Assembly (NCBI GenBank): GCA_016278515.1
Contig: JADQBR010000001.1
Location: forward strand, 1 to 57,181
Direction of reading: 5' to 3'
Length of the DNA: 57,181 bases
From: Bacillota bacterium
Lineage (GTDB): Bacteria; Bacillota; JADQBR01
Part shown: positions 6,771 through 17,035 of the stretch, piece after piece
Numbering within the stretch: position 1 is the stretch's first letter
Layout of the letters: each line of letters begins with the position of its first letter
Position numbers and translations under genes: made by a program
The notes under the pieces: generated by a model
What the model was told of the DNA's origin: nothing
What the model saw: only the letters and a program-made list of their open reading frames with translations
The model's database searches: none

Positions 6771-7445
6771 ATGCTGGTTTCCACAACAACGGCTACTGCA
6801 TTAAGGTGTCCCGAGTGTGGTAAGATAGAATACAACGGCATATCGATATTTCAATTTTCGGGCTATGCATCTGTTGTGCTCATTTGTGGTTGTGGTACAA
6901 CTCTGGCAACTCTCTTCAGCAGCAATTATCGCAAGTTTGTGTTAGAAATATACTGCGGAATGTGCACCGGTTCTCACAAGTATTTTTTTGCTGGTAAAGA
7001 GATTTGGTCTCAAGGGGCTGCTGAGATACTCTACTGTGAGGATACTGGTTTGGAGTCAGGTTTTATTGGCAGCAGGGAGGAAGTAAATAAAGCCATTAAA
7101 CAGCTTGAGTATTCTGCTGCGCGCTTAGATTTTGGTTTGAACGAGGAATGCCTTAATGATCCCGATTTGACAAATCAATTATTGGATTCATTATTTGAAA
7201 AGTTAGATGCAGGAAAGTTAAGCTGTAAATGTAGTAGTAATACTAAACTGCAGGTGGAGACATTACAAGATTATGTTGAAATAAATTGTCAGCATTGCAA
7301 ATCTTACACGCAAGTAGCTATCGGTTCTGAAGAGTATTTGATGATCTTGGAGCAAAATAATGAGCTTCAGTTAACGCCGAAGGGACTTGTGGTTCCCAAT
7401 ATGATACCAGCTAAATCAAAAAAAGAGCAAGATACTAAACTATAA
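6771..7445 (+). CDS. Cys-rich protein of unknown function, probable zinc ribbons
   Basis: 224 aa, not recognised as a named family. The N-terminal half has CPECG, a CGCG stretch, and CGMC followed by TGSHKYF. The C-terminal half has CKCSS and CQHCKSY. These pairs look like one or more zinc knuckles, with CPEC/CGCG as one candidate site. There is no signal peptide or membrane segment. It sits 32 bases behind spo0F and 29 bases ahead of fba with a good GGGGAGGT ribosome site, so it is probably co-transcribed. Proteins of this kind next to spo0F may be clade-specific, but that is unverified. Confidence 0.75.
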   Translation: MLVSTTTATALRCPECGKIEYNGISIFQFSGYASVVLICGCGTTLATLFSSNYRKFVLEIYCGMCTGSHKYFFAGKEIWSQGAAEILYCEDTGLESGFIGSREEVNKAIKQLEYSAARLDFGLNEECLNDPDLTNQLLDSLFEKLDAGKLSCKCSSNTKLQVETLQDYVEINCQHCKSYTQVAIGSEEYLMILEQNNELQLTPKGLVVPNMIPAKSKKEQDTKL

Positions 7446-8403: not shown

Positions 8404-9390
8404 TTAATACGCTTCTCTTAGAACATCTTCGGCGTTACGCCCGTCGAATGACTTAACACCTTGTACCCATTCGCTAACCAAATCAACGTTATTTGTAATC
8501 CATTCTTTAGCTACTTCTTCCGGTTTACGACCGTTCTTACCATACTCAAGTATCCATGCGCTCTGGATGTCGCTGTCTATATCAAACTGCTCTAACAGTT
8601 TGAACGCATTAGGGGATTTTTCCGGGAAACTGGAAGTGACTACGGTACCAATTCTTTCATCGCCGCCCCAGATGCCTTCGGGATCATCCAAGTATTTCAT
8701 ATCAAGGACAACATTCATCCAGTGTGGCTTCCAACCGCTGAATACTATCCAATCTTCGTTTTCTATTGTGCTTTCCACCTGAGCCAGCATAGCCGAAGTG
8801 CTGCTTTCAACAACAGTCCAGTCTGCCAGACCATATGTGTCATTTTCCACGGCATCCAACATGATTTGGTTACCGTCATTTCCTGGCTCAATACCATAAT
8901 ATTTATAATCAAACTTCTCAGCGTGTTCGGCTAAACCTGCTAAAGATTTAACTCCAGCCTCAAAAACATAGGTTGGAACTGCGGGCCGATAAGTCGAATT
9001 TTCGATTTGAACACTTGCTACTTTTATAGAGCCTGCATCTAATCGGTTTTGCAGCGGCTCACCAAAGGTTTGGAACCAAGTGCCTGCAAATGCATCTAGA
9101 TCTCCTGTCTCCAATCCTTTTAAGACTAAGGGGACAGTGTAAGCTTCTAAACTAACATCATAACCTAACGTTTCAAAAATGTCTTTTAGTACATAGGATT
9201 TTTGCGTTACCCCAGGCCATTCGACTCTGCTCAACTTTAAGGCCTTTTCATCGCTGATTTGCTGATTTTCCGTTTTGCCCTGGTTTTGTGTATCCTGATC
9301 TTTGGTTTCCTGCTGTGGTTGCTCATTGGAGCACCCGGCAAAAATTCCACTGACAGCTAATAACAATACTAACATTCCAATAACTAACAC
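8404..9390 (-). CDS. ChoX/OpuAC-type choline or betaine-binding lipoprotein
   Basis: 328 aa from GTG 9390; substrate-binding component of a quaternary-amine ABC importer (OpuAC fold). The leader ends in a lipobox, IFAGC. Aromatic cage candidates are Trp in RVEWPG, Trp in GTWFQT, Tyr in STYRPAVP and Trp in SGWKPHWMN. Strings such as YGIEPGNDGN and VVESSxxxMLAQV match my memory of rhizobial choline-binding ChoX better than classical OpuAC, so choline is a likely ligand. No permease gene accompanies it. The start is odd: the basic part of the signal peptide (KFKKKN) lies upstream of the GTG, and a perfect AGGAGG (9429-9434) is placed 8 bases before an AUU codon at 9420. The true protein may therefore begin at 9420. 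It follows the GbsR-type gene on the same strand. Confidence 0.9.
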   Translation of the reverse strand: MLVIGMLVLLLAVSGIFAGCSNEQPQQETKDQDTQNQGKTENQQISDEKALKLSRVEWPGVTQKSYVLKDIFETLGYDVSLEAYTVPLVLKGLETGDLDAFAGTWFQTFGEPLQNRLDAGSIKVASVQIENSTYRPAVPTYVFEAGVKSLAGLAEHAEKFDYKYYGIEPGNDGNQIMLDAVENDTYGLADWTVVESSTSAMLAQVESTIENEDWIVFSGWKPHWMNVVLDMKYLDDPEGIWGGDERIGTVVTSSFPEKSPNAFKLLEQFDIDSDIQSAWILEYGKNGRKPEEVAKEWITNNVDLVSEWVQGVKSFDGRNAEDVLREAY

Positions 9391-9504
9391 ATTCTTTTTC
9401 TTAAATTTTGATACTAAAATAATTACAACCTCCTTGAGTTTTTAACAGTCTTTCCGACATGTACTAGGTAAACAATACTTACAAAAAAGTTCACCTCCTT
9501 AACA

Positions 9505-10032
9505 TCATTTTTTTGGAATAAAGTCAAAAATTTCACCGTTTTCCAGACTGATTACCAATGTTTTTAGCCATTCATAATATTCTTTAGCATTAGATAGCTT
9601 TACCATGTCTTTTTGAGCTTTTTCTTTAACTTCTAGGTTTTTGCTATTAGTCAGCTCTTTTAAAATAGGCTCGGCCTTTTTAATTGCTTCCATATTAAGC
9701 TCGATCTCCCGGAACCACATTTTACAATAGAAAGCCACAAAACTTTTAAAAAAGTCCGTCTGTGCTTCGTAAAGATCTTTCCGGACACCTTTTTCCCAGA
9801 CCTTGTTAATAAAATGATCATTCTCCAACTTTCTTACACCTGTGCTCATACTGGTCTTACTCATCCCCATAGCTTCCTTTAATTCATCAAGGGTCATGGG
9901 ACCATCACTAAAGTATAAAGTCGCATAGAGTCTACCAATTGAAGGGGGGATGCCGTAGAGGTCCATAGTATTGGCCATCATTGTGGTAATTTTATTACGG
10001 GCTTCTTCTAACTTCTCTTCATCTGTCTTCAT
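9505..10032 (-). CDS. gbsR: GbsR/MarR-family transcriptional regulator
   Basis: 175 aa. The winged-helix region (about residues 25-90) reads IPPSIGRLYATLYFSDGPMTLDELKEAMGMSKTSMSTGVRKLE in pieces typical of the GbsR branch of MarR regulators. The C-terminal helical part is rich in aromatic and acidic residues and would hold the ligand or dimer site. In B. subtilis GbsR represses gbsAB and the opuB importer and is relieved by choline. Here it is divergent from the ferredoxin-AOR-alcohol dehydrogenase operon and upstream of the choline-binding-like lipoprotein, the same logic with different enzymes. The 230-bp divergent region would carry its operators. Family assignment is firm; the ligand is inferred. 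Confidence 0.88.
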   Translation of the reverse strand: MKTDEEKLEEARNKITTMMANTMDLYGIPPSIGRLYATLYFSDGPMTLDELKEAMGMSKTSMSTGVRKLENDHFINKVWEKGVRKDLYEAQTDFFKSFVAFYCKMWFREIELNMEAIKKAEPILKELTNSKNLEVKEKAQKDMVKLSNAKEYYEWLKTLVISLENGEIFDFIPKK

Positions 10033-10262
10033 AAGCTGTCAACCTTTCTGAAGGAAATAAGATAACAGTATTAAGTATTATAATAACAAACGAATTTAAA
10101 ATCAAATATTGCATGTACAGTATAAACCGTATATAATTGATGCCAGTTGCTATTTTGATTTGTTTGTACAGTTTTTATTGTATAAATAGTATATATTGTA
10201 TTGCAACTATATTCAACTATTAATTTCAAGGCGCTATGTAACTTTCTGAAAGGGGGAGAAAA
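10033..10262. promoter_or_regulatory. Divergent control region between gbsR and the fdx-aor-adh operon
   Basis: On the plus strand TTGTAC (10164-10169), a 17-bp spacer and TAGTAT (10187-10192) form a candidate promoter. The octamer TGTACAGT occurs twice in direct orientation (10114-10121 and 10165-10172), the second overlapping the -35. Each is followed downstream by GTATATA (10129-10135 and 10189-10195). These are candidate operators for the GbsR-type regulator. No minus-strand promoter could be assigned with confidence. Confidence 0.5.
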
Positions 10263-10682
10263 ATGACAAAGAAGATTGTCGCAGATTTTAGTCTTTGCAC
10301 AGGATGTGCTATTTGCCTTCTTGCGTGCAGTGAAAGGGTTACCGGCGGATTTAACCCGCGATATGCATTAATGAGAATAGAAAATAAGATGGATGGTTTG
10401 GTTAATGAACCAATTCTATGCTCTCAATGCACTAATGCTTATTGCCAGCAGGTTTGCCCAGTCAATGCGATTGAAGTAGTAAATAACGATCAGGTACTGA
10501 AGATTAATCAGGATAAATGCAACGGCTGCGGTTTATGTGAAAAATATTGTCCCCACGATGTAATTGTTATCCATGATAAACGGGCTGCAAAGTGTGATCT
10601 TTGTGATGGGGAAGTACGATGCGTATCACAATGTCCCACTGGTGCCCTGCAGTTGGTTGAGAGGGGGGAATTACATGAATAG
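10263..10682 (+). CDS. Four-cluster 4Fe-4S ferredoxin, electron-transfer partner of AOR
   Basis: 139 aa with 16 cysteines arranged as HycB/AorA-type polyferredoxins: CTGCAICLLAC, CSQCTNAYCQQVCP, CNGCGLCEKYCP and CDLCDGEVRCVSQCP. This fits four [4Fe-4S] clusters. Such proteins form the small electron-carrying subunit of multi-subunit aldehyde oxidoreductases and related enzymes. The AOR gene starts inside its stop region (ATG 10675 against stop 10680-10682), so the two are translationally coupled, which supports a physical complex. The ribosome site AAAGGGGGAG is strong. The final acceptor, a soluble ferredoxin or another oxidoreductase, is not shown here. Confidence 0.92.
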   Translation: MTKKIVADFSLCTGCAICLLACSERVTGGFNPRYALMRIENKMDGLVNEPILCSQCTNAYCQQVCPVNAIEVVNNDQVLKINQDKCNGCGLCEKYCPHDVIVIHDKRAAKCDLCDGEVRCVSQCPTGALQLVERGELHE

Positions 10683-12516
10683 AGGATACACCGGTAAAGT
10701 TCTTCATATTAACCTATCCAACGGTGACTCAGAAATACGCCAAATACCGGAGAGAGTATTAGAGGATTATGTGGGCGGCAAAGGTTTAGCCGCATGGCTG
10801 CTGTTCAACTCCTGTGCAAAAAGGATTGATCCCCTTGGACCTGAAAACCCAGTAATATTTGCCGCCGGACCATTGACCGGCAGCAACGCACCGGCTACAA
10901 GAGGAGTGGTAGTTACCTGCTCACCCCTGACCGGATTGTTTGTAGATTCATATTATGGTGGTCATTTTGCTCAGGAAATTAAATATGCCGGATATGATGC
11001 CATAGTCCTAACCGGGCAAGCGGAGGCGCCTGTTTATCTTTATATTGAGGATAATGAGGTTCAGATAAGAGATGCTGATCAACTTTGGGGGTTAGATACC
11101 TTTCAGACTAATGGAACTATAAAAAAGGAATTGGCGGATGATACCGTAAAGGTTGCTTCTATCGGCCCTGCGGGTGAGAATCTAGTACCTTTTGCATTGG
11201 TATCTTGTGAATACAACCGCCAGGCAGGCCGTGGGGGAGTCGGTGCTGTATTAGGCAGTAAGAATTTAAAGGCAGTAGCGGTTAAAGGTGGGGGAACCGT
11301 TGGGGTAAATGATAGAAATGCATTCTTCCAAGCGGTGAACCAGGCACGAAACGAATTGGCAGCAGATGCTACTTGTCAAGAATTGACTCGAGCAGGAACA
11401 GCTTCATCACTTTGGTTTGCAAACGAACAAGGACTGCTGCCGGTTCACAATTATCAAAACGGCCAATTTAATCCTAAGGGTTTGGCAGAGGACGCCCAGA
11501 AGGATCAGTTCTGGTTAAGGGATGTTGGTTGTGCATCGTGTCCTATCAGATGCAGTAAAATTGGGGTCATAACCTCCGGTAAAAGGTCGGGCACAATTTC
11601 CGACATCGTAGAATATGAAACTGCAGCTTTAATGGGAGTAAATCTAGGCTTAGAGGATATTAGGGAAGTAGCTTATTTGGTTAATCTCTGTGATGCATTA
11701 GGATTAGATGGGATGTCAACGGGAAGCGTATTGGGTTTTGCTATGGAATGTTTCGAAGACGGCATATTAAATAGTTCAGATTATGGTCAGATAAATCTTA
11801 CCTTTGGTTCAAAGGAGCATTTGGATATAGTTATTAAACAAATAGCGTTTCGACAAGGCCCTTTGGGTAGACTTTTAAGTCAAGGCACTGCCAGGGCTGC
11901 TCAAGAGCTTGGCTCGAATGCGGAGGACAAAGCTGTCCATGTAAAAAGGATGGATTTTCCAGCTTGGGGCCCACGAGGGGTACCGGGTATGGGGTTAGCA
12001 TACCTAACGGCGGATCGTGGTGCTTGCCATCAGAGGGCATTTCCTGTCGGAAATGAAGCCGGAGGTGAACCTTGGAATGGTCAGCAGGTAGAGCGCTTGG
12101 CCGTTAAGGGTAAGGCGGAAATAGTAGTTCAACAACAGAACTATTCAGCTTCTCTGGACACGTTGGTCAAATGTGATTTCGGTTCGTTTGGGATTTCTCA
12201 AGAAAGCTACATTGAGTTGTACGAAGCTGCAACAGGGGATGCCATGTGTGAAGGCAGGCTGCTGGCGATTGGAGAACGGATTTGGAACCTAACCCGCTTG
12301 TTCAACCTACGACAGGGCATGTCAACAGAAGATGAGAAGCTGCCACAAAGGTGTTTAGAGCCGCTGCCTGATGGACCGGCTCAAGGTCATAAATTTACTA
12401 AAGAAGATCAACAGCTAATGCTTCAGGAATATTATGAAATTCGTGGCTGGGATAATTTAGGTCAGCCGCGCCAAGATAAATTAATTCAGCTAAATATTAA
12501 AGAGGAGGTCTTTTAA
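10675..12516 (+). CDS. aor: Tungsten/molybdopterin aldehyde:ferredoxin oxidoreductase
   Basis: 613 aa. AOR-family enzymes oxidise aldehydes to carboxylates with a bis-pterin tungsten (or molybdenum) cofactor and one [4Fe-4S] cluster. The cluster ligands are C286, C289 and C293 in CASCPIRC, and C500 in LVKCDFGSF, nearly the same numbering as Pyrococcus AOR as I recall it. Pterin-binding stretches include FAAGPLTGSNAPATRG, CEYNRQAGRGGVGAVLGSKN and GMGLAYLTADRGACHQR. The start at ATG 10675 has GAGGGGGG ahead and gives the family N-terminus GYTGKVLHINL; an upstream extension to 10564 overlaps the ferredoxin gene and is rejected. It ends directly at the alcohol dehydrogenase ATG. Given its neighbours, betaine aldehyde is a reasonable substrate, but this is inference. 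Confidence 0.95.
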   Translation: MNRGYTGKVLHINLSNGDSEIRQIPERVLEDYVGGKGLAAWLLFNSCAKRIDPLGPENPVIFAAGPLTGSNAPATRGVVVTCSPLTGLFVDSYYGGHFAQEIKYAGYDAIVLTGQAEAPVYLYIEDNEVQIRDADQLWGLDTFQTNGTIKKELADDTVKVASIGPAGENLVPFALVSCEYNRQAGRGGVGAVLGSKNLKAVAVKGGGTVGVNDRNAFFQAVNQARNELAADATCQELTRAGTASSLWFANEQGLLPVHNYQNGQFNPKGLAEDAQKDQFWLRDVGCASCPIRCSKIGVITSGKRSGTISDIVEYETAALMGVNLGLEDIREVAYLVNLCDALGLDGMSTGSVLGFAMECFEDGILNSSDYGQINLTFGSKEHLDIVIKQIAFRQGPLGRLLSQGTARAAQELGSNAEDKAVHVKRMDFPAWGPRGVPGMGLAYLTADRGACHQRAFPVGNEAGGEPWNGQQVERLAVKGKAEIVVQQQNYSASLDTLVKCDFGSFGISQESYIELYEAATGDAMCEGRLLAIGERIWNLTRLFNLRQGMSTEDEKLPQRCLEPLPDGPAQGHKFTKEDQQLMLQEYYEIRGWDNLGQPRQDKLIQLNIKEEVF

Positions 12517-13692
12517 ATGAGAATTGAACAAATGCAAAAAATGAGTGTCTTTGAGGTTCCTACGGTCATGAAACACAGCTTGGGGGCTATAAAGGAGCTA
12601 GGAAACGAAGTAAAGAACTTGGGGATTTCAAAGCCTTTAATTGTTACAGATAAGGGAGTAAAGGCTGCAGGGCTGGTAGAACCGGCAGAACGCAGTTTAA
12701 AGGAAGCAGGCGTCCCTTATGTAATCTATGATGGTGTTGTTGCCAATCCACCTTTGGAAGTAGTGGCAAAGGGAACCGGCACTTACAAGAATGAGGGCTG
12801 TGACGGAATGATAGCAATAGGCGGCGGCAGTTCTATGGACACTGCCAAGGCAATTGGTGTGGAAGTGGCCCATGGAGAATCTGTCTTGGCGTACGAATGT
12901 GCTGAAGGGAAAAAGCCGTTGACTAAGAGGATACCGCCATTAGTGACAGTTCCAACCACGGCGGGTACGGGTAGTGAGGTAACCCTTTGGGCAGTAATTA
13001 CTGACCCTGCAAGGGAGTTTAAATTTAATACCGGAGGGCCATTAATCGCAGCCCACTTGACTTTAATTGACCCGGAGCTTCATGTTACCATGCCTGCGGG
13101 AGTGACAGCAGGAACTGGTATGGATGCATTATGTCATGCAATTGAATGCTATACTTGTCACTATGCCCAACCTCAAACAGATGCGGTTGCACTATTGGCA
13201 ATAGAATATGCCGGCAAATATCTTCGGCGGGCCGTAGCTAATGGTCAAGATTTAGAAGCACGCTACGGAATGGCTATGTCGGCTATGCTGGCAGGGTTGG
13301 CCTACGGCAGTGAGAGTGCAGGTGCTGTACATGCCATGACTCAAACTTTAGGCGGTATTGTTCCTGTAGCCCATGGAGCCGCGGTGGCCGCCACATTAGC
13401 ACCGGTTATGGAGTACAATTGGATAGGCGATCCGGAAAAATTTGCTAGAATAGCGCAAGCTCTAGGCGTGGATACATTTGGGATTGATGTCCATGATGCC
13501 GCACGAGCGTCGGTGGAAGCTGTACGAAATTTGGCAGAAGACATTGCAGTTCCGACTTTAAGTGATTTAGGCGTAAAAGAAGAAATGATTCCCCGCTTGG
13601 CAAAAGAGGCGGAAAACGATCCCCAGACAATAGGCAATCCACGGGATATAAATGCTAAAGGTTATGAGGAGATTTATAGAAACTGCTTCTAA
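12517..13692 (+). CDS. Iron-type (group III) alcohol dehydrogenase, candidate choline dehydrogenase
   Basis: 391 aa. The NAD-binding glycine-rich loop is GGGSSMDTAKA and the second signature is PTTAGTGSEVT. Metal ligands fit Asp203 and His207 in GMDALCHAIECY, and His272 and His286 in AVHAMTQTLGGIVPVAHG, with the spacing of the FucO family. The Bacillus choline dehydrogenase GbsB is a member of this same family. The ATG immediately follows the AOR stop codon with AGAGGAGGT upstream, so the alcohol and aldehyde oxidation steps are co-expressed. Likely reaction: choline to betaine aldehyde with NAD. A general short-chain alcohol dehydrogenase is the alternative. A strong terminator follows. Confidence 0.93.
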   Translation: MRIEQMQKMSVFEVPTVMKHSLGAIKELGNEVKNLGISKPLIVTDKGVKAAGLVEPAERSLKEAGVPYVIYDGVVANPPLEVVAKGTGTYKNEGCDGMIAIGGGSSMDTAKAIGVEVAHGESVLAYECAEGKKPLTKRIPPLVTVPTTAGTGSEVTLWAVITDPAREFKFNTGGPLIAAHLTLIDPELHVTMPAGVTAGTGMDALCHAIECYTCHYAQPQTDAVALLAIEYAGKYLRRAVANGQDLEARYGMAMSAMLAGLAYGSESAGAVHAMTQTLGGIVPVAHGAAVAATLAPVMEYNWIGDPEKFARIAQALGVDTFGIDVHDAARASVEAVRNLAEDIAVPTLSDLGVKEEMIPRLAKEAENDPQTIGNPRDINAKGYEEIYRNCF

Positions 13693-13739
13693 AATAAAAC
13701 AGGGTGTTCGAATAAGGACATGAATAGCTAAACTTGGCC

Positions 13740-13777
13740 AAAAGCTGCTGGCATTAAATACTGTCAGCAGCTTTTTT
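13740..13777 (+). terminator. Intrinsic terminator of the fdx-aor-adh operon
   Basis: AAAGCTGCTGGCA (13741-13753) pairs with TGTCAGCAGCTTT (13762-13774) with one G-U pair and runs into TTTTTT. The remainder of the 356-bp gap 13693-14048 holds the next promoter and leader. Confidence 0.9.
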
Positions 13778-13902
13778 GGGTCGTGTTGTAGCATTTGGGA
13801 AGATATGCCCACATTTGGCACATAAAACTAAGCTAAACGGAAATGATTATTATTAGGGCCTATAAGGAAAGGCAGGAACTTTCTGAGACAAGTCACATAG
13901 AG

Positions 13903-13932
13903 TTGACGTTTTCCTTAATAAGTTATTAAAAT
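13903..13932 (+). promoter_or_regulatory. Promoter of proX-proV-proW
   Basis: TTGACG (13903-13908), an 18-bp spacer and TAAAAT (13927-13932). It lies about 115 bp ahead of the binding-protein start, leaving a structured leader. Confidence 0.55.
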
Positions 13933-13972
13933 AATATGGTGGGTACTGTTTTATAATAGCAAGTATTTAAGA

Positions 13973-14022
13973 ATGGGCTAAAAATAAGTGGTGCGAGGTA
14001 TATAAGCCCATTGTTAGCCCAT
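13973..14022 (+). promoter_or_regulatory. proX leader with alternative hairpins
   Basis: ATGGGCTAA (13973-13981) can pair perfectly with TTAGCCCAT (14014-14022), or over seven pairs with AAGCCCAT (14004-14011). The two partners exclude each other. The ribosome site TAAGGAGG (14031-14038) stands just downstream. No T-run follows, so any control would act on translation or RNA stability. Not a recognised riboswitch class. Confidence 0.4.
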
Positions 14023-14048
14023 GGAAAAATTAAGGAGGTTAAATTTTT

Positions 14049-14951
14049 ATGAAGTTAAGCAACAAGAAAGTTACCATTTTAGTGACAATTATTTTAGGCC
14101 TTAGCCTAATGCTGGCAGCAGGTTGTACACAAACTGCCGACCAAGATTCCAAAGATAATGGTCAAGAGCAAGAGGCGAAAGGTACGGTTAAGCTAGCATA
14201 TGTCAATTGGGCAGAAGGTGTGGCCATGACAAATTTAGCCCAAGCAATTTTAGAGGATGAAATGGGTTATAGTGTGGAAACAACGATGGCCGATCCGGCA
14301 CCAGTTTTTACTTCTATTGCCAACGGTGACCAGGATGCATTCTTGGACGCATGGCTTCCGGTAACCCACGAAACTTACATGGAAGAATATGGGGATGACT
14401 TAGTAGACTTAGGTTATAATTTTGAGGGTGCGCGTATAGGACTAGTTGTTCCTCAGTACGTAGACATTAACAGTATTGAGGAAATGAACAGCGTTAAAGA
14501 TAAATTTAACGGGCAAATTGTTGGAATTGACTCGGGTGCCGGTATTATGGGTGCTACTGAGACTGCCATTAGCGAATATGGGCTTGATTACGAATTGGTT
14601 GCAGGAAGTGGACCGGCCATGACTGCGGCACTTAAAGATGCCGTTGAGAATGATGAATGGGTGGCTGTAACAGGATGGAAACCTCACTGGAAATTCGCTC
14701 GTTGGAACTTGAAGTTTTTAGAAGATCCTAAAAAGATTTATGGTGCTGTAGAGAATGTCCACACCGTGGCACGAAAAGGCTTGGAAGATGACATGCCCGA
14801 AGTTGCCCAGTTCTTAAAGAACTTTAAGTTAAATGACCAGCAGCTTGGAAGCTTAATGGGCATTATAGCAGATAGTGATGGAGACGCTATTGATGCTGCA
14901 AGGGACTGGATGAAAGAAAATGGGGATTTAGTAAAAAGCTGGATAGAATAG
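14049..14951 (+). CDS. proX: Glycine betaine/proline-betaine binding lipoprotein (OpuAC/ProX)
   Basis: 300 aa. The signal peptide carries KLSNKK then a hydrophobic run ending in the lipobox LAAGC, so the protein is anchored outside the membrane. The OpuAC domain spans about residues 45-295. Likely betaine cage tryptophans are in VNWAEG, DAWLPVTH and GWKPHWKF, the standard Firmicute glycine-betaine binder pattern, unlike the ChoX-like lipoprotein at 8404-9390. The ribosome site AAGGAGG is ideal. It heads the proX-proV-proW operon, and a 15-bp hairpin between proX and proV probably lowers expression of the ATPase and permease relative to the binder. Ligand choice is by family resemblance. Confidence 0.94.
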   Translation: MKLSNKKVTILVTIILGLSLMLAAGCTQTADQDSKDNGQEQEAKGTVKLAYVNWAEGVAMTNLAQAILEDEMGYSVETTMADPAPVFTSIANGDQDAFLDAWLPVTHETYMEEYGDDLVDLGYNFEGARIGLVVPQYVDINSIEEMNSVKDKFNGQIVGIDSGAGIMGATETAISEYGLDYELVAGSGPAMTAALKDAVENDEWVAVTGWKPHWKFARWNLKFLEDPKKIYGAVENVHTVARKGLEDDMPEVAQFLKNFKLNDQQLGSLMGIIADSDGDAIDAARDWMKENGDLVKSWIE

Positions 14952-14957
14952 GTTAAC

Positions 14958-15002
14958 TAAATAATCCCTGGCTTAGCCAGGGATTATTTAAACATTTTTT
15001 TT
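14958..15002 (+). terminator. Partial terminator/attenuator between proX and proV
   Basis: A perfect 15-bp stem (14958-14972 with 14976-14990, loop TTA) is followed by AACA and eight T residues. It lies inside an apparent operon, so it probably terminates only part of the transcripts or protects the 3' end of proX mRNA. Confidence 0.8.
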
Positions 15003-15020
15003 ATATTAAGGAGGGAAACA

Positions 15021-16205
15021 ATGCCCAAGATAGAGGTTAAAAATATATATAAAATCTTTGGGTCTCGGCCTAAAAGTATTTTCCCCCATTTGGAAAAAGG
15101 TATGTCCAAAGATGAAATTCTTGAAAAAACTGGGCATACAGTTGGTATTAATAGTGCCAGTTTCCAAGTGGAAGAGGGAGAAACCTTTGTAATTATGGGT
15201 TTATCCGGAAGTGGTAAGTCCACTTTGATTAGGTGCCTAAACCGTCTTATTGAGCCTACTGCAGGTGAAGTCTTGATTGACGGAGAGAATATCCTGGAGG
15301 CAAGCCATCAAGAATTGTTAAGAATGCGGCAGAAAAAAATGGCCATGGTTTTTCAACGATTTGCGCTATTCCCGCATCGCACAATAGTGACTAATGTAGA
15401 GTATGGCTTAGAAATCCAAGGTGTAGAGGACCAGATACGCAGGGAGAAGGCATATGAGGTTCTTGAAATGGTAGGACTTAAAGGCTATGAAGAGAGTATG
15501 CCCGACCAGCTTAGCGGTGGAATGCAGCAACGTGTAGGACTGGCCCGTGCGTTGGCTACGGATCCTGATGTTTTATTGATGGACGAAGCATTTAGCGCGT
15601 TGGACCCGCTAATCAAAAAGGAAATGCAGGATGAGTTGTTAGAACTGCAAGCAAAAATGCATAAAACAATTATTTTTATTACACATGACTTGGATGAGGC
15701 ATTAAAACTTGGCGATAGAATTGCTGTTATGAAGGACGGGAAAATTGTACAAATAGGTACCCCTGAAGAGATACTCACTGATCCGGCCAATGCTTACGTT
15801 AAGGAATTTGTGCAGGATGTTGACAGAACAAAGATAATAACAGCAGCAACAATTATGAGGAAACCAGATGCAGTAATGGCCCCTAAAGAGGGGCCGAGGG
15901 TTGCTGTGAGAAAAATGGAAGAGGCTGGGATATCCAGTATTTACGTGACAGGTAAAGATAAGTACTTGAAAGGACTTGTTCGCATAGAAGATGCGGTGAG
16001 GCTGGCCAAAGAAGGTAAGGATAATCTTGAAGAGGTAATTATTAAAGACATTCCAACTACCGCTCCGGATACACCTATGGTTGATTTGTTGCCAGTTGCC
16101 GCTACGACCTCTTATCCTATTGTGGTAGTAGATGAGGACAACAAAATGTTGGGAATAATTGTTAGAGTGTCAGTGATTTCAGGAATTATAGGACGGGGGG
16201 ATTAG
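15021..16205 (+). CDS. proV: Glycine betaine ABC transporter ATPase with CBS domains
   Basis: 394 aa; energises uptake of glycine betaine and related compounds. Walker A is GLSGSGKST (residues 60-68), the ABC signature is LSGGMQQR near residue 164, and Walker B is LLMDEAFSALDP. The N-terminal extension with SRPKSIFPHLEKG is typical of OpuAA/ProV. A tandem CBS region occupies about residues 280-394; in related transporters it senses ionic strength or nucleotides such as c-di-AMP. A DarA-type c-di-AMP receptor is also encoded in this window, but no direct link is shown. The permease gene follows after two bases. Confidence 0.96.
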   Translation: MPKIEVKNIYKIFGSRPKSIFPHLEKGMSKDEILEKTGHTVGINSASFQVEEGETFVIMGLSGSGKSTLIRCLNRLIEPTAGEVLIDGENILEASHQELLRMRQKKMAMVFQRFALFPHRTIVTNVEYGLEIQGVEDQIRREKAYEVLEMVGLKGYEESMPDQLSGGMQQRVGLARALATDPDVLLMDEAFSALDPLIKKEMQDELLELQAKMHKTIIFITHDLDEALKLGDRIAVMKDGKIVQIGTPEEILTDPANAYVKEFVQDVDRTKIITAATIMRKPDAVMAPKEGPRVAVRKMEEAGISSIYVTGKDKYLKGLVRIEDAVRLAKEGKDNLEEVIIKDIPTTAPDTPMVDLLPVAATTSYPIVVVDEDNKMLGIIVRVSVISGIIGRGD

Positions 16206-16207
16206 AA

Positions 16208-17035
16208 ATGTTTACGTTGCATATTGGGCCTGCTTTTGAAGCCCTAATTGATTGGTTGACCGATAACTTTTCTGGTGTATTTGATCTAATTAGAAAAGTT
16301 TTAATGTCTGGTATTACCGGTTTGGAGGATATTTTGCTGTTCCTGCCGTCACTTATATTAATAGTGATTTTTGCACTGGTAGCGTGGAAGATTGCCGGCA
16401 GAGGTGTCGCGGCTTTCACATTATTAGGATTTTTACTTATTGTAGGTATGGAATTATGGCCTCAAACCATGAAGACACTAGCTCTGGTAATGGCTTCCGC
16501 ATTAATAGCATTAGTGATAGGAATACCGTTGGGTATCTGGGCTGCAAGGAATGATATGGTAGAAAAATTTGTAAGGCCTGTTTTGGATTTCATGCAGACC
16601 ATGCCTGCATTTGTATACTTAATCCCAGCTGTTTTATTCTTCAAATTGGGTAAAGTACCGGGTGCTGTTGCGACAGTTATTTTTTCCATGCCCCCGGCAG
16701 TTAGATTAACTAATTTGGGAATTCGTCAAGTACCTGAGGATGTGGTCGAAGCGGCTAAATCTTTCGGTTCCACCCCTAGGCAGCTTTTATACAAAGTACA
16801 GCTGCCCATAGCAACTCCAACCATTCTCGCCGGTGTTAACCAGACGATAATGTTGGCGCTATCGATGGTGGTTATTTCTGCGATGATTGGGGCAGGTGGA
16901 TTAGGTAGTGAAGTGTTAAAAGGTATTACTCAATTGAAAATAGGATTGGGGTTTGAAAGTGGTATTGCAGTTGTAATTTTGGCAATGATATTAGATAGAA
17001 TTACCCAAGCCCTAGGTGGAACAAAATCCAAATAA
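16208..17035 (+). CDS. proW: Glycine betaine ABC transporter permease
   Basis: 275 aa integral membrane protein with about six to seven hydrophobic segments. The EAA-type cytoplasmic loop, which contacts the ATPase, is seen as VPEDVVEAAKSFGSTPRQLLYKVQLP, with the helper motif AKSFG and the conserved glycine. The sequence belongs to the OpuAB/ProW type, with no fused binding domain. It is the only permease of the island, so both lipoproteins, the OpuAC-like and the ChoX-like, may dock to it. A terminator follows. Confidence 0.95.
   Translation: MFTLHIGPAFEALIDWLTDNFSGVFDLIRKVLMSGITGLEDILLFLPSLILIVIFALVAWKIAGRGVAAFTLLGFLLIVGMELWPQTMKTLALVMASALIALVIGIPLGIWAARNDMVEKFVRPVLDFMQTMPAFVYLIPAVLFFKLGKVPGAVATVIFSMPPAVRLTNLGIRQVPEDVVEAAKSFGSTPRQLLYKVQLPIATPTILAGVNQTIMLALSMVVISAMIGAGGLGSEVLKGITQLKIGLGFESGIAVVILAMILDRITQALGGTKSK

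Follow-up and report, generated by a model that had tools for sequence, protein, structure and literature searches.

Introduction

The closest described counterpart of the locus reported here is the choline oxidation system of Bacillus subtilis, GbsR–GbsA–GbsB with OpuB (and CudC in Staphylococcus; PMC6207618). We have analysed a 57,181-nucleotide stretch of a Bacillota genome (GenBank assembly GCA_016278515.1, contig JADQBR010000001.1, positions 1–57,181; ‘the window’), in which positions 8404–17035 carry genes of the same GbsB and GbsR families, again with a divergent gbsR and with a quaternary-amine ATP-binding cassette (ABC) transporter under or near the same control, and for which we propose the same reaction sequence. 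The NAD-dependent GbsA is missing, however, and a tungsten-type aldehyde oxidoreductase (AOR) with a ferredoxin subunit is found instead, such that electrons would go to ferredoxin and not to NAD. In our view the locus is very probably an anaerobic version of the Bacillus choline oxidation system, with the AOR in place of GbsA.

The nearest physiological case is ‘Ca. Formimonas warabiya’ DCMF, a strict anaerobe thought to turn choline into glycine betaine before demethylation; its authors place an annotated betaine aldehyde dehydrogenase at the second step, under a locus number distant from the one for choline dehydrogenase, and mention no AOR (PMC8163858). A full-text literature search, with most subscription journals outside its coverage, found no report of an AOR serving as the betaine-aldehyde step, and returned nothing relevant on AOR gene neighbourhoods.

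Gene content of the locus

A first-pass annotation, made from the DNA alone, had described a GbsR-type regulator divergent from a tightly coupled operon of polyferredoxin, AOR and iron-type alcohol dehydrogenase (ADH), flanked by two quaternary-amine binding lipoproteins and ProV–ProW. All of the genes named there are found within 8404–17035, and their coordinates and family matches bear out the layout:

8404–9390, minus strand: choline/betaine-binding lipoprotein, ChoX-like (SBPc), OpuAC/ChoX-type (PF04069, 7e-52)
9505–10032, minus strand: GbsR/CudC choline-responsive MarR-type repressor (NCBIfam NF047500, 219.8 bits, cut-off 218)
10263–10682, plus strand: ferredoxin-like small subunit, AorA-like, 139 residues, 16 Cys (four [4Fe-4S] motifs)
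10675–12516, plus strand: AOR-family tungsten-type aldehyde oxidoreductase, 613 residues (PF02730 and PF01314; 1aor_A, 2e-136)
12517–13692, plus strand: GbsB, iron-type (type III) choline dehydrogenase (NF053866, 678.3 bits, cut-off 550)
14049–14951, plus strand: glycine-betaine-binding lipoprotein, OpuAC-like (SBPb; PF04069, 2e-73; B. subtilis OpuAC 2b4l, 2e-57)
15021–16205, plus strand: ProV/OpuAA ATPase with CBS domain (TIGR01186, 465 bits, cut-off 326.6)
16208–17035, plus strand: ProW/ChoW-type permease (PF00528)

The coupling is indeed tight: the last 8 bp of the ferredoxin gene belong to the AOR gene as well (with the ATG at 10675 preferred as AOR start over the mechanically called TTG at 10564), and the first base of gbsB is the one directly after the AOR stop codon. 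A gap of 356 bp separates gbsB from the second OpuAC lipoprotein gene at 14049, for which reason ProV–ProW probably forms its own transcription unit. Outside the cluster, positions 6771–7445 (plus strand) encode a 224-residue protein that contains several CxxC-type motifs and matches no Pfam family.

A GbsB-type dehydrogenase without GbsA

The dehydrogenase had been proposed to be of GbsB type, the alternative being that it groups with ethanol or butanol enzymes. It does not: beyond its score against NF053866, it is 65–66% identical to Bacillus GbsB (66% to that of B. spizizenii), whereas the other iron-type ADHs of the same genome reach 35–39% full-length identity to it (29% in a partial match) and fall far under the NF053866 cut-off. 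The aromatic residues following the wing of GbsR align with those of Bacillus GbsR, where they have been proposed to form a cage for the inducer, choline (PMC6207618). Taken as a GbsAB-type system, the locus therefore has GbsB and GbsR, each over its cut-off, and is missing GbsA.

This absence extends to the whole of the window's genome (G000; 4.27 Mb, 100% complete), since its only genes of the aldehyde dehydrogenase (ALDH) superfamily are ProA, adjoining ProB, and a CoA-acylating methylmalonate-semialdehyde dehydrogenase. The latter, which is the only full-length ALDH besides ProA, scores 544.7 bits against its own cut-off of 448.5 and 299 bits against the 669 needed for betaine aldehyde dehydrogenase; a GbsA hidden elsewhere in the genome is thus ruled out. 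AOR-family genes number eleven in the same genome.

GbsA and AOR as mutually exclusive neighbours of GbsB

Scanning GTDB genomes with GbsB and scoring the neighbouring genes gave 80 GbsB loci: GbsA is present in 68 and an AOR in nine, none has both, and three have neither. Each of the three exceptions can be explained. One locus (L012) is cut by a contig end, and the AOR of the same genome sits at the end of another contig; one (L020) is an extra copy of GbsB in Ammoniphilus, whose gbsA–gbsB pair lies some 13 kb away; and the third (L082) comes from a genome in which a different contig carries GbsA (63% identical) and which has no AOR of the window's subfamily.

The same pattern appears when 398 genomes are sampled from the phylum. 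GbsB occurs in 12 of these, two being Bacillus with GbsA and the other ten all having the ferredoxin–AOR pair in the cluster. AORs scoring at least 588 bits against that of the window are found in exactly those ten GbsB genomes and in one other (G147), the next best score among the 398 being 484 bits; the co-occurrence of GbsB with this AOR subfamily has a Fisher p of 3e-17, relatedness ignored. Searched with Bacillus GbsA, 13 of 18 genomes with both the AOR and GbsB yield no ALDH at E ≤ 1e-40, and the top match among the remaining five is 38% identical.

Ferredoxin and AOR share one cluster with GbsB in 15 genomes and do so in three gene orders: ferredoxin–AOR–GbsB (the window, L108, L113–L116, L080 and L083), GbsB–ferredoxin–AOR (L010, L011, L013, L117 and L118), and GbsB divergent from GbsR–binding protein–ProW–ProV–ferredoxin–AOR (L009 and L064, the latter from Desulfoscipio geothermicus DSM 3669). 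Since the order differs, the association goes beyond inherited gene order and, together with the phylum-wide co-occurrence, this rules out the AOR as a chance neighbour. The search of other genomes suggested in the first-pass annotation accordingly recovers the AOR in place of GbsA in anaerobic GbsB carriers; that the AOR would take the GbsA step, as also proposed there, is supported by every test that could be run on sequence (a true GbsB, no GbsA, mutual exclusion and co-occurrence).

As a separate observation, the GbsB of L082, from a metagenome-assembled genome (MAG) of Desulfohalobiaceae (Tobar), groups with that of L083, from another MAG named Tobar, reflecting either gene transfer or mis-binning.

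AOR subunit and electron acceptor

The AOR comprises the AFOR_N and AFOR_C domains (PF02730 and PF01314), and its closest solved catalytic subunit is 1aor, to which the AlphaFold model fits with a TM-score of 0.92—a fold search that confirms the fold only. We compared the second-shell residues of the Pyrococcus enzyme as listed in PMC12096430 across the 15 AORs of the main GbsB-linked group. The [4Fe-4S] ligands Cys286, 289, 293 and 500 are kept in all 15, as are Thr243, Glu311, Tyr312, Glu313 and His448 (P. furiosus, Pfu, numbering). A further set, Asp501, Gln453, Trp280, Asp310, Lys499 and Val312 (window numbering), is fixed within the group and rare outside it.

The ferredoxin subunit carries its 16 Cys in four CxxC..CxxxC sets and matches Aromatoleum AorA (8c0z_C, 4e-21), 9mqx_E (2e-17) and the small subunit of WOR5 (6x6u_B, 2e-14). 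No gene for an AorC-like FAD/NAD subunit lies within 8404–17035, for which reason ferredoxin is likely the electron acceptor of the AOR. Aldehyde/acid couples lie far below NAD in potential and are able to reduce ferredoxin. The first-pass annotation proposed that the reaction would reduce ferredoxin and conserve a low-potential electron pair. No RnfC scores above cut-off in G000, and energy saving through Rnf is thus not supported.

Two recruitments of an AOR

In Tindallia (L021 and L040) gbsR is divergent from AOR–gbsB, which is the Bacillus layout with an AOR exactly in the gbsA slot. This AOR, with just 35% identity, clusters with two others (L002 and L003), has His at the position of Pfu Tyr427 and, of the group markers compared, shares only Gln453; a single clade of all GbsB-linked AORs is rejected by the approximately unbiased (AU) test (p = 2e-7). 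An AOR has therefore taken the GbsA slot at least twice, one instance being in clostridial lineages, Desulfotomaculum-type among them, and the other in Tindallia. The 15 AORs of the main group fall on one side of a branch with support 92/86, rising to 100/99 when the sister AOR of G147 (L128) is included.

In the GbsB trees, Tindallia nests within the Bacilli clade and the remaining GbsBs with an AOR partner are paraphyletic with respect to the GbsA-linked clade (AU p = 0.007 for a single clade of them), the GbsA-linked set here being close GbsB relatives only. These trees suggest, short of proof, that the AOR form is older than the GbsA form, and in their simplest reading GbsA arrived with the aerobic Bacilli and Tindallia swapped back. 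The direction of change is something we infer, since distant ADH outgroups determine the root and long branches drew a warning from the program. One may tentatively go further, along lines that we would not yet favour: a dedicated, Trp-marked betaine-aldehyde:ferredoxin AOR could have been the original partner of GbsB, with GbsA replacing it on passage to the aerobic Bacilli, and Tindallia, on regaining gbsR–gbsB from Bacilli, could have put an unrelated AOR in the gbsA slot.

Putative regulatory sites

Three candidate elements lie between gbsR and the operon:

10077–10105, minus strand: putative gbsR promoter, TTGATT-17-TATAAT (consensus scan, 10/12 match)
10116–10131, no strand: putative GbsR operator 1, TACAGTATAAACCGTA (near-palindrome, one mismatch to TACAGTnnnnAYTGTA)
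10167–10182, no strand: putative GbsR operator 2, TACAGTTTTTATTGTA (the only exact motif match in the 4.27 Mb genome)

The promoter is a weak candidate, given that the scan found 5 sites against 3.9 expected. Both putative operators are near-palindromes of the form TACAGT-N4-RYTGTA, a motif defined post hoc, and comparable sites occur upstream of the L108, L010 and L115 clusters. One-mismatch matches across G000 show no enrichment over a reversed control; we accordingly dropped the idea of a genome-wide GbsR regulon based on the palindrome and keep, as a weak claim, the two sites at the divergent promoter.

Transport and fate of glycine betaine

The OpuA/ChoX quaternary-amine ABC set is complete, with OpuAC binding domain, ProV ATPase and ProW permease. 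For the ChoX-like lipoprotein the best solved structure is Sinorhizobium meliloti ChoX (2reg, 6e-44); in the alignment the Trp/Trp/Tyr/Trp box is kept and the Asp of the ChoX ‘WTD’ is Gly. The permease scores 334 bits against TIGR03416 (cut-off 363) and 319 bits against PRK10952 (cut-off 439): OpuA/ChoX-type uptake components thus adjoin the gbsB genes but score under the choline-specific equivalog cut-offs. In five other loci (L011, L012, L013, L116 and L118) we see no OpuA-type transporter; a conserved protein of the amino-acid-permease family, which may be an uncharacterised choline importer, adjoins gbsB–ferredoxin–AOR there, along with a putative metallophosphoesterase.

The first-pass annotation took the product to be made as an osmoprotectant. 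The OpuA/ChoX-type uptake genes and GbsR, as the osmostress set, agree with this purpose, but it is not the only likely fate. In L118 the genes after gbsB–ferredoxin–AOR encode two MttB proteins, a corrinoid protein and a methyltetrahydrofolate methyltransferase, a set that points to glycine betaine being demethylated. G000 itself contains a candidate quaternary-amine demethylation cluster (L156; contig C40, 10000–29900), with three tandem MttB-family genes, an OpuAC lipoprotein, two permeases, an ATPase and a sigma-54 activator. Given these two sets of methyltransferases, glycine betaine may be both osmoprotectant and methyl donor.

The stronger form of this view, that the pathway is catabolic and not osmoprotective, with choline-derived glycine betaine feeding methyl groups to one-carbon metabolism and the AOR saving electrons for that purpose, is to our minds a serious possibility, though we lean a little the other way. 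It draws on L118, on the MttB genes of G000 and on ‘Ca. Formimonas warabiya’, which ferments choline and glycine betaine (PMC8163858); against it, the window, like most relatives whose cluster has a transporter attached, combines OpuA/ChoX-type uptake genes with GbsR and has no methyltransferase in the cluster. It is in any case compatible with the AOR replacing GbsA, since it changes the purpose of the pathway and leaves the AOR reaction as it is.

A further AOR of G000 (L003) lies in a different setting (L159; contig C51, 24000–38000), with an OpuAC lipoprotein, OpuB/C-like permease and ATPase, a class I aminotransferase and a thiamine-diphosphate enzyme; judged by its gene content, this looks like uptake of a betaine-type amino acid and its conversion through an oxo acid and an aldehyde to an acid.

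Discussion

We propose that choline would enter through the OpuA/ChoX-type ABC transporter, a substrate suggested by the families of its components, and be oxidized by GbsB to betaine aldehyde with NAD, the reaction known for the Bacillus member of the family. The AOR, with its four-cluster ferredoxin subunit, would then convert betaine aldehyde to glycine betaine and pass two low-potential electrons to ferredoxin, a step that we infer from its position, from the way AOR and GbsA exclude each other and from chemistry common to the AOR family. GbsR would repress the divergent promoter until choline binds, as its family, its cage residues and the two palindromes suggest. The glycine betaine formed would serve as osmoprotectant; at least one relative, and possibly this organism too, would also use it as methyl donor for catabolism.

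Several observations weigh against this proposal. Of the residue set that marks AOR sensu stricto (Thr243/Glu313/Tyr427/His448), Thr, Glu and His are kept and Tyr427 is replaced, by Trp in 14 of the 15 AORs and by Phe in one, so that AOR kinetics should not be assumed; Pyrococcus WOR4, in which the same Tyr-to-Trp change occurs, has no measured aldehyde oxidation, although it has also lost a cluster Cys (PMC12096430). The AlphaFold model is of low confidence at the active site, with predicted local distance difference test (pLDDT) values below 50 for residues 449–455 and 501–503, and we have therefore left its active-site geometry unused. The sister AOR of G147 has the same Trp and is not near GbsB. 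Finally, other AOR–ADH neighbourhoods occur in G000, and so the pairing of an AOR with an ADH does not in itself indicate choline. As to the Trp, we would speculate, by analogy with choline-binding proteins, that it might hold the trimethylammonium group through a cation–pi contact.

Two of these points can be described further. In G147 (L149; contig C4, 1–12000) the sister AOR adjoins genes of a branched-chain-type ABC transporter. In G000, four more iron-type ADH genes lie within a few kb of other AORs, on contigs C72 (L157, adjacent), C59 (L158), C12 (L160) and C74 (L161); such neighbourhoods are thus recurrent in this genome, presumably serving other alcohols.

This recurrence also speaks for a rival reading, in which the AOR is a broad scavenger that removes any aldehyde escaping from GbsB and is not specially suited to betaine aldehyde. 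The AORs characterised so far have a broad range (PMC12096430), and the recruitment of two unrelated AORs is as expected if a generalist suffices. We nevertheless consider this reading unlikely: the main lineage forms an AOR subfamily of its own that accompanies GbsB in all sampled genomes but one, and its clade residues Trp431, Asp501, Gln453, Trp280 and Asp310 are fixed or nearly so, which suggests a dedicated substrate. Least credible of all, and in our estimation very improbable, is that the true substrates of the GbsB-like enzyme and the AOR are a quaternary or amino alcohol other than choline and the corresponding aldehyde: the family assignment comes from sequence, the Tyr-to-Trp change leaves room for other substrates and the transporters vary (OpuA-type, amino-acid-permease family, sugar-type ABC in L117), but GbsB is far over its equivalog cut-off, AOR-linked GbsBs are 57–86% identical among themselves and 62–70% identical to GbsA-linked ones, and GbsR and the ChoX-like proteins point to a trimethylammonium ligand.

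Replacement of GbsA by the AOR, if it holds, has several consequences. Many clades of AOR/WOR tungsten enzymes are purely hypothetical in function (PMC12096430), and one of them would gain a concrete, testable substrate. The presence of GbsB in strict anaerobes without a betaine aldehyde dehydrogenase would be explained, as a clean exchange, made at least twice, between an NAD enzyme and an oxygen-sensitive, low-potential one, and how the pathway evolved between anaerobes and aerobes would become testable. Annotation would otherwise misread such organisms as lacking the ability to turn choline into glycine betaine, or assign that step to some unrelated ALDH.

Comparison with known systems

Among characterised enzymes, AorABC of Aromatoleum aromaticum (8c0z) likewise joins a catalytic AOR to a small four-cluster polyferredoxin, and its second-shell Glu and His residues are kept in the window's AOR (PMC10413684). 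It differs in having the FAD/NAD subunit AorC, in the Tyr443 of AorB, which is Trp here, and in the length of its small subunit, 192 residues in the solved chain against 139. An expression system for AORs is available in Aromatoleum evansii (PMC10413684). The AOR of Pyrococcus furiosus, the nearest in structure, has no known choline link. WOR5/ASOR (6x6u) is also an enzyme of large and four-cluster small subunits; it has His at the Tyr position, no known choline link and is only distantly related (269 bits, with 459 for 1aor). A review gives the WOR5 intermediate as betaine aldehyde (PMC12096430), a naming that looks doubtful for taurine. Set against the GbsAB pathway, the first enzyme and the regulator of the window's system are already known; what is new is the second enzyme and, with it, the inferred electron acceptor.

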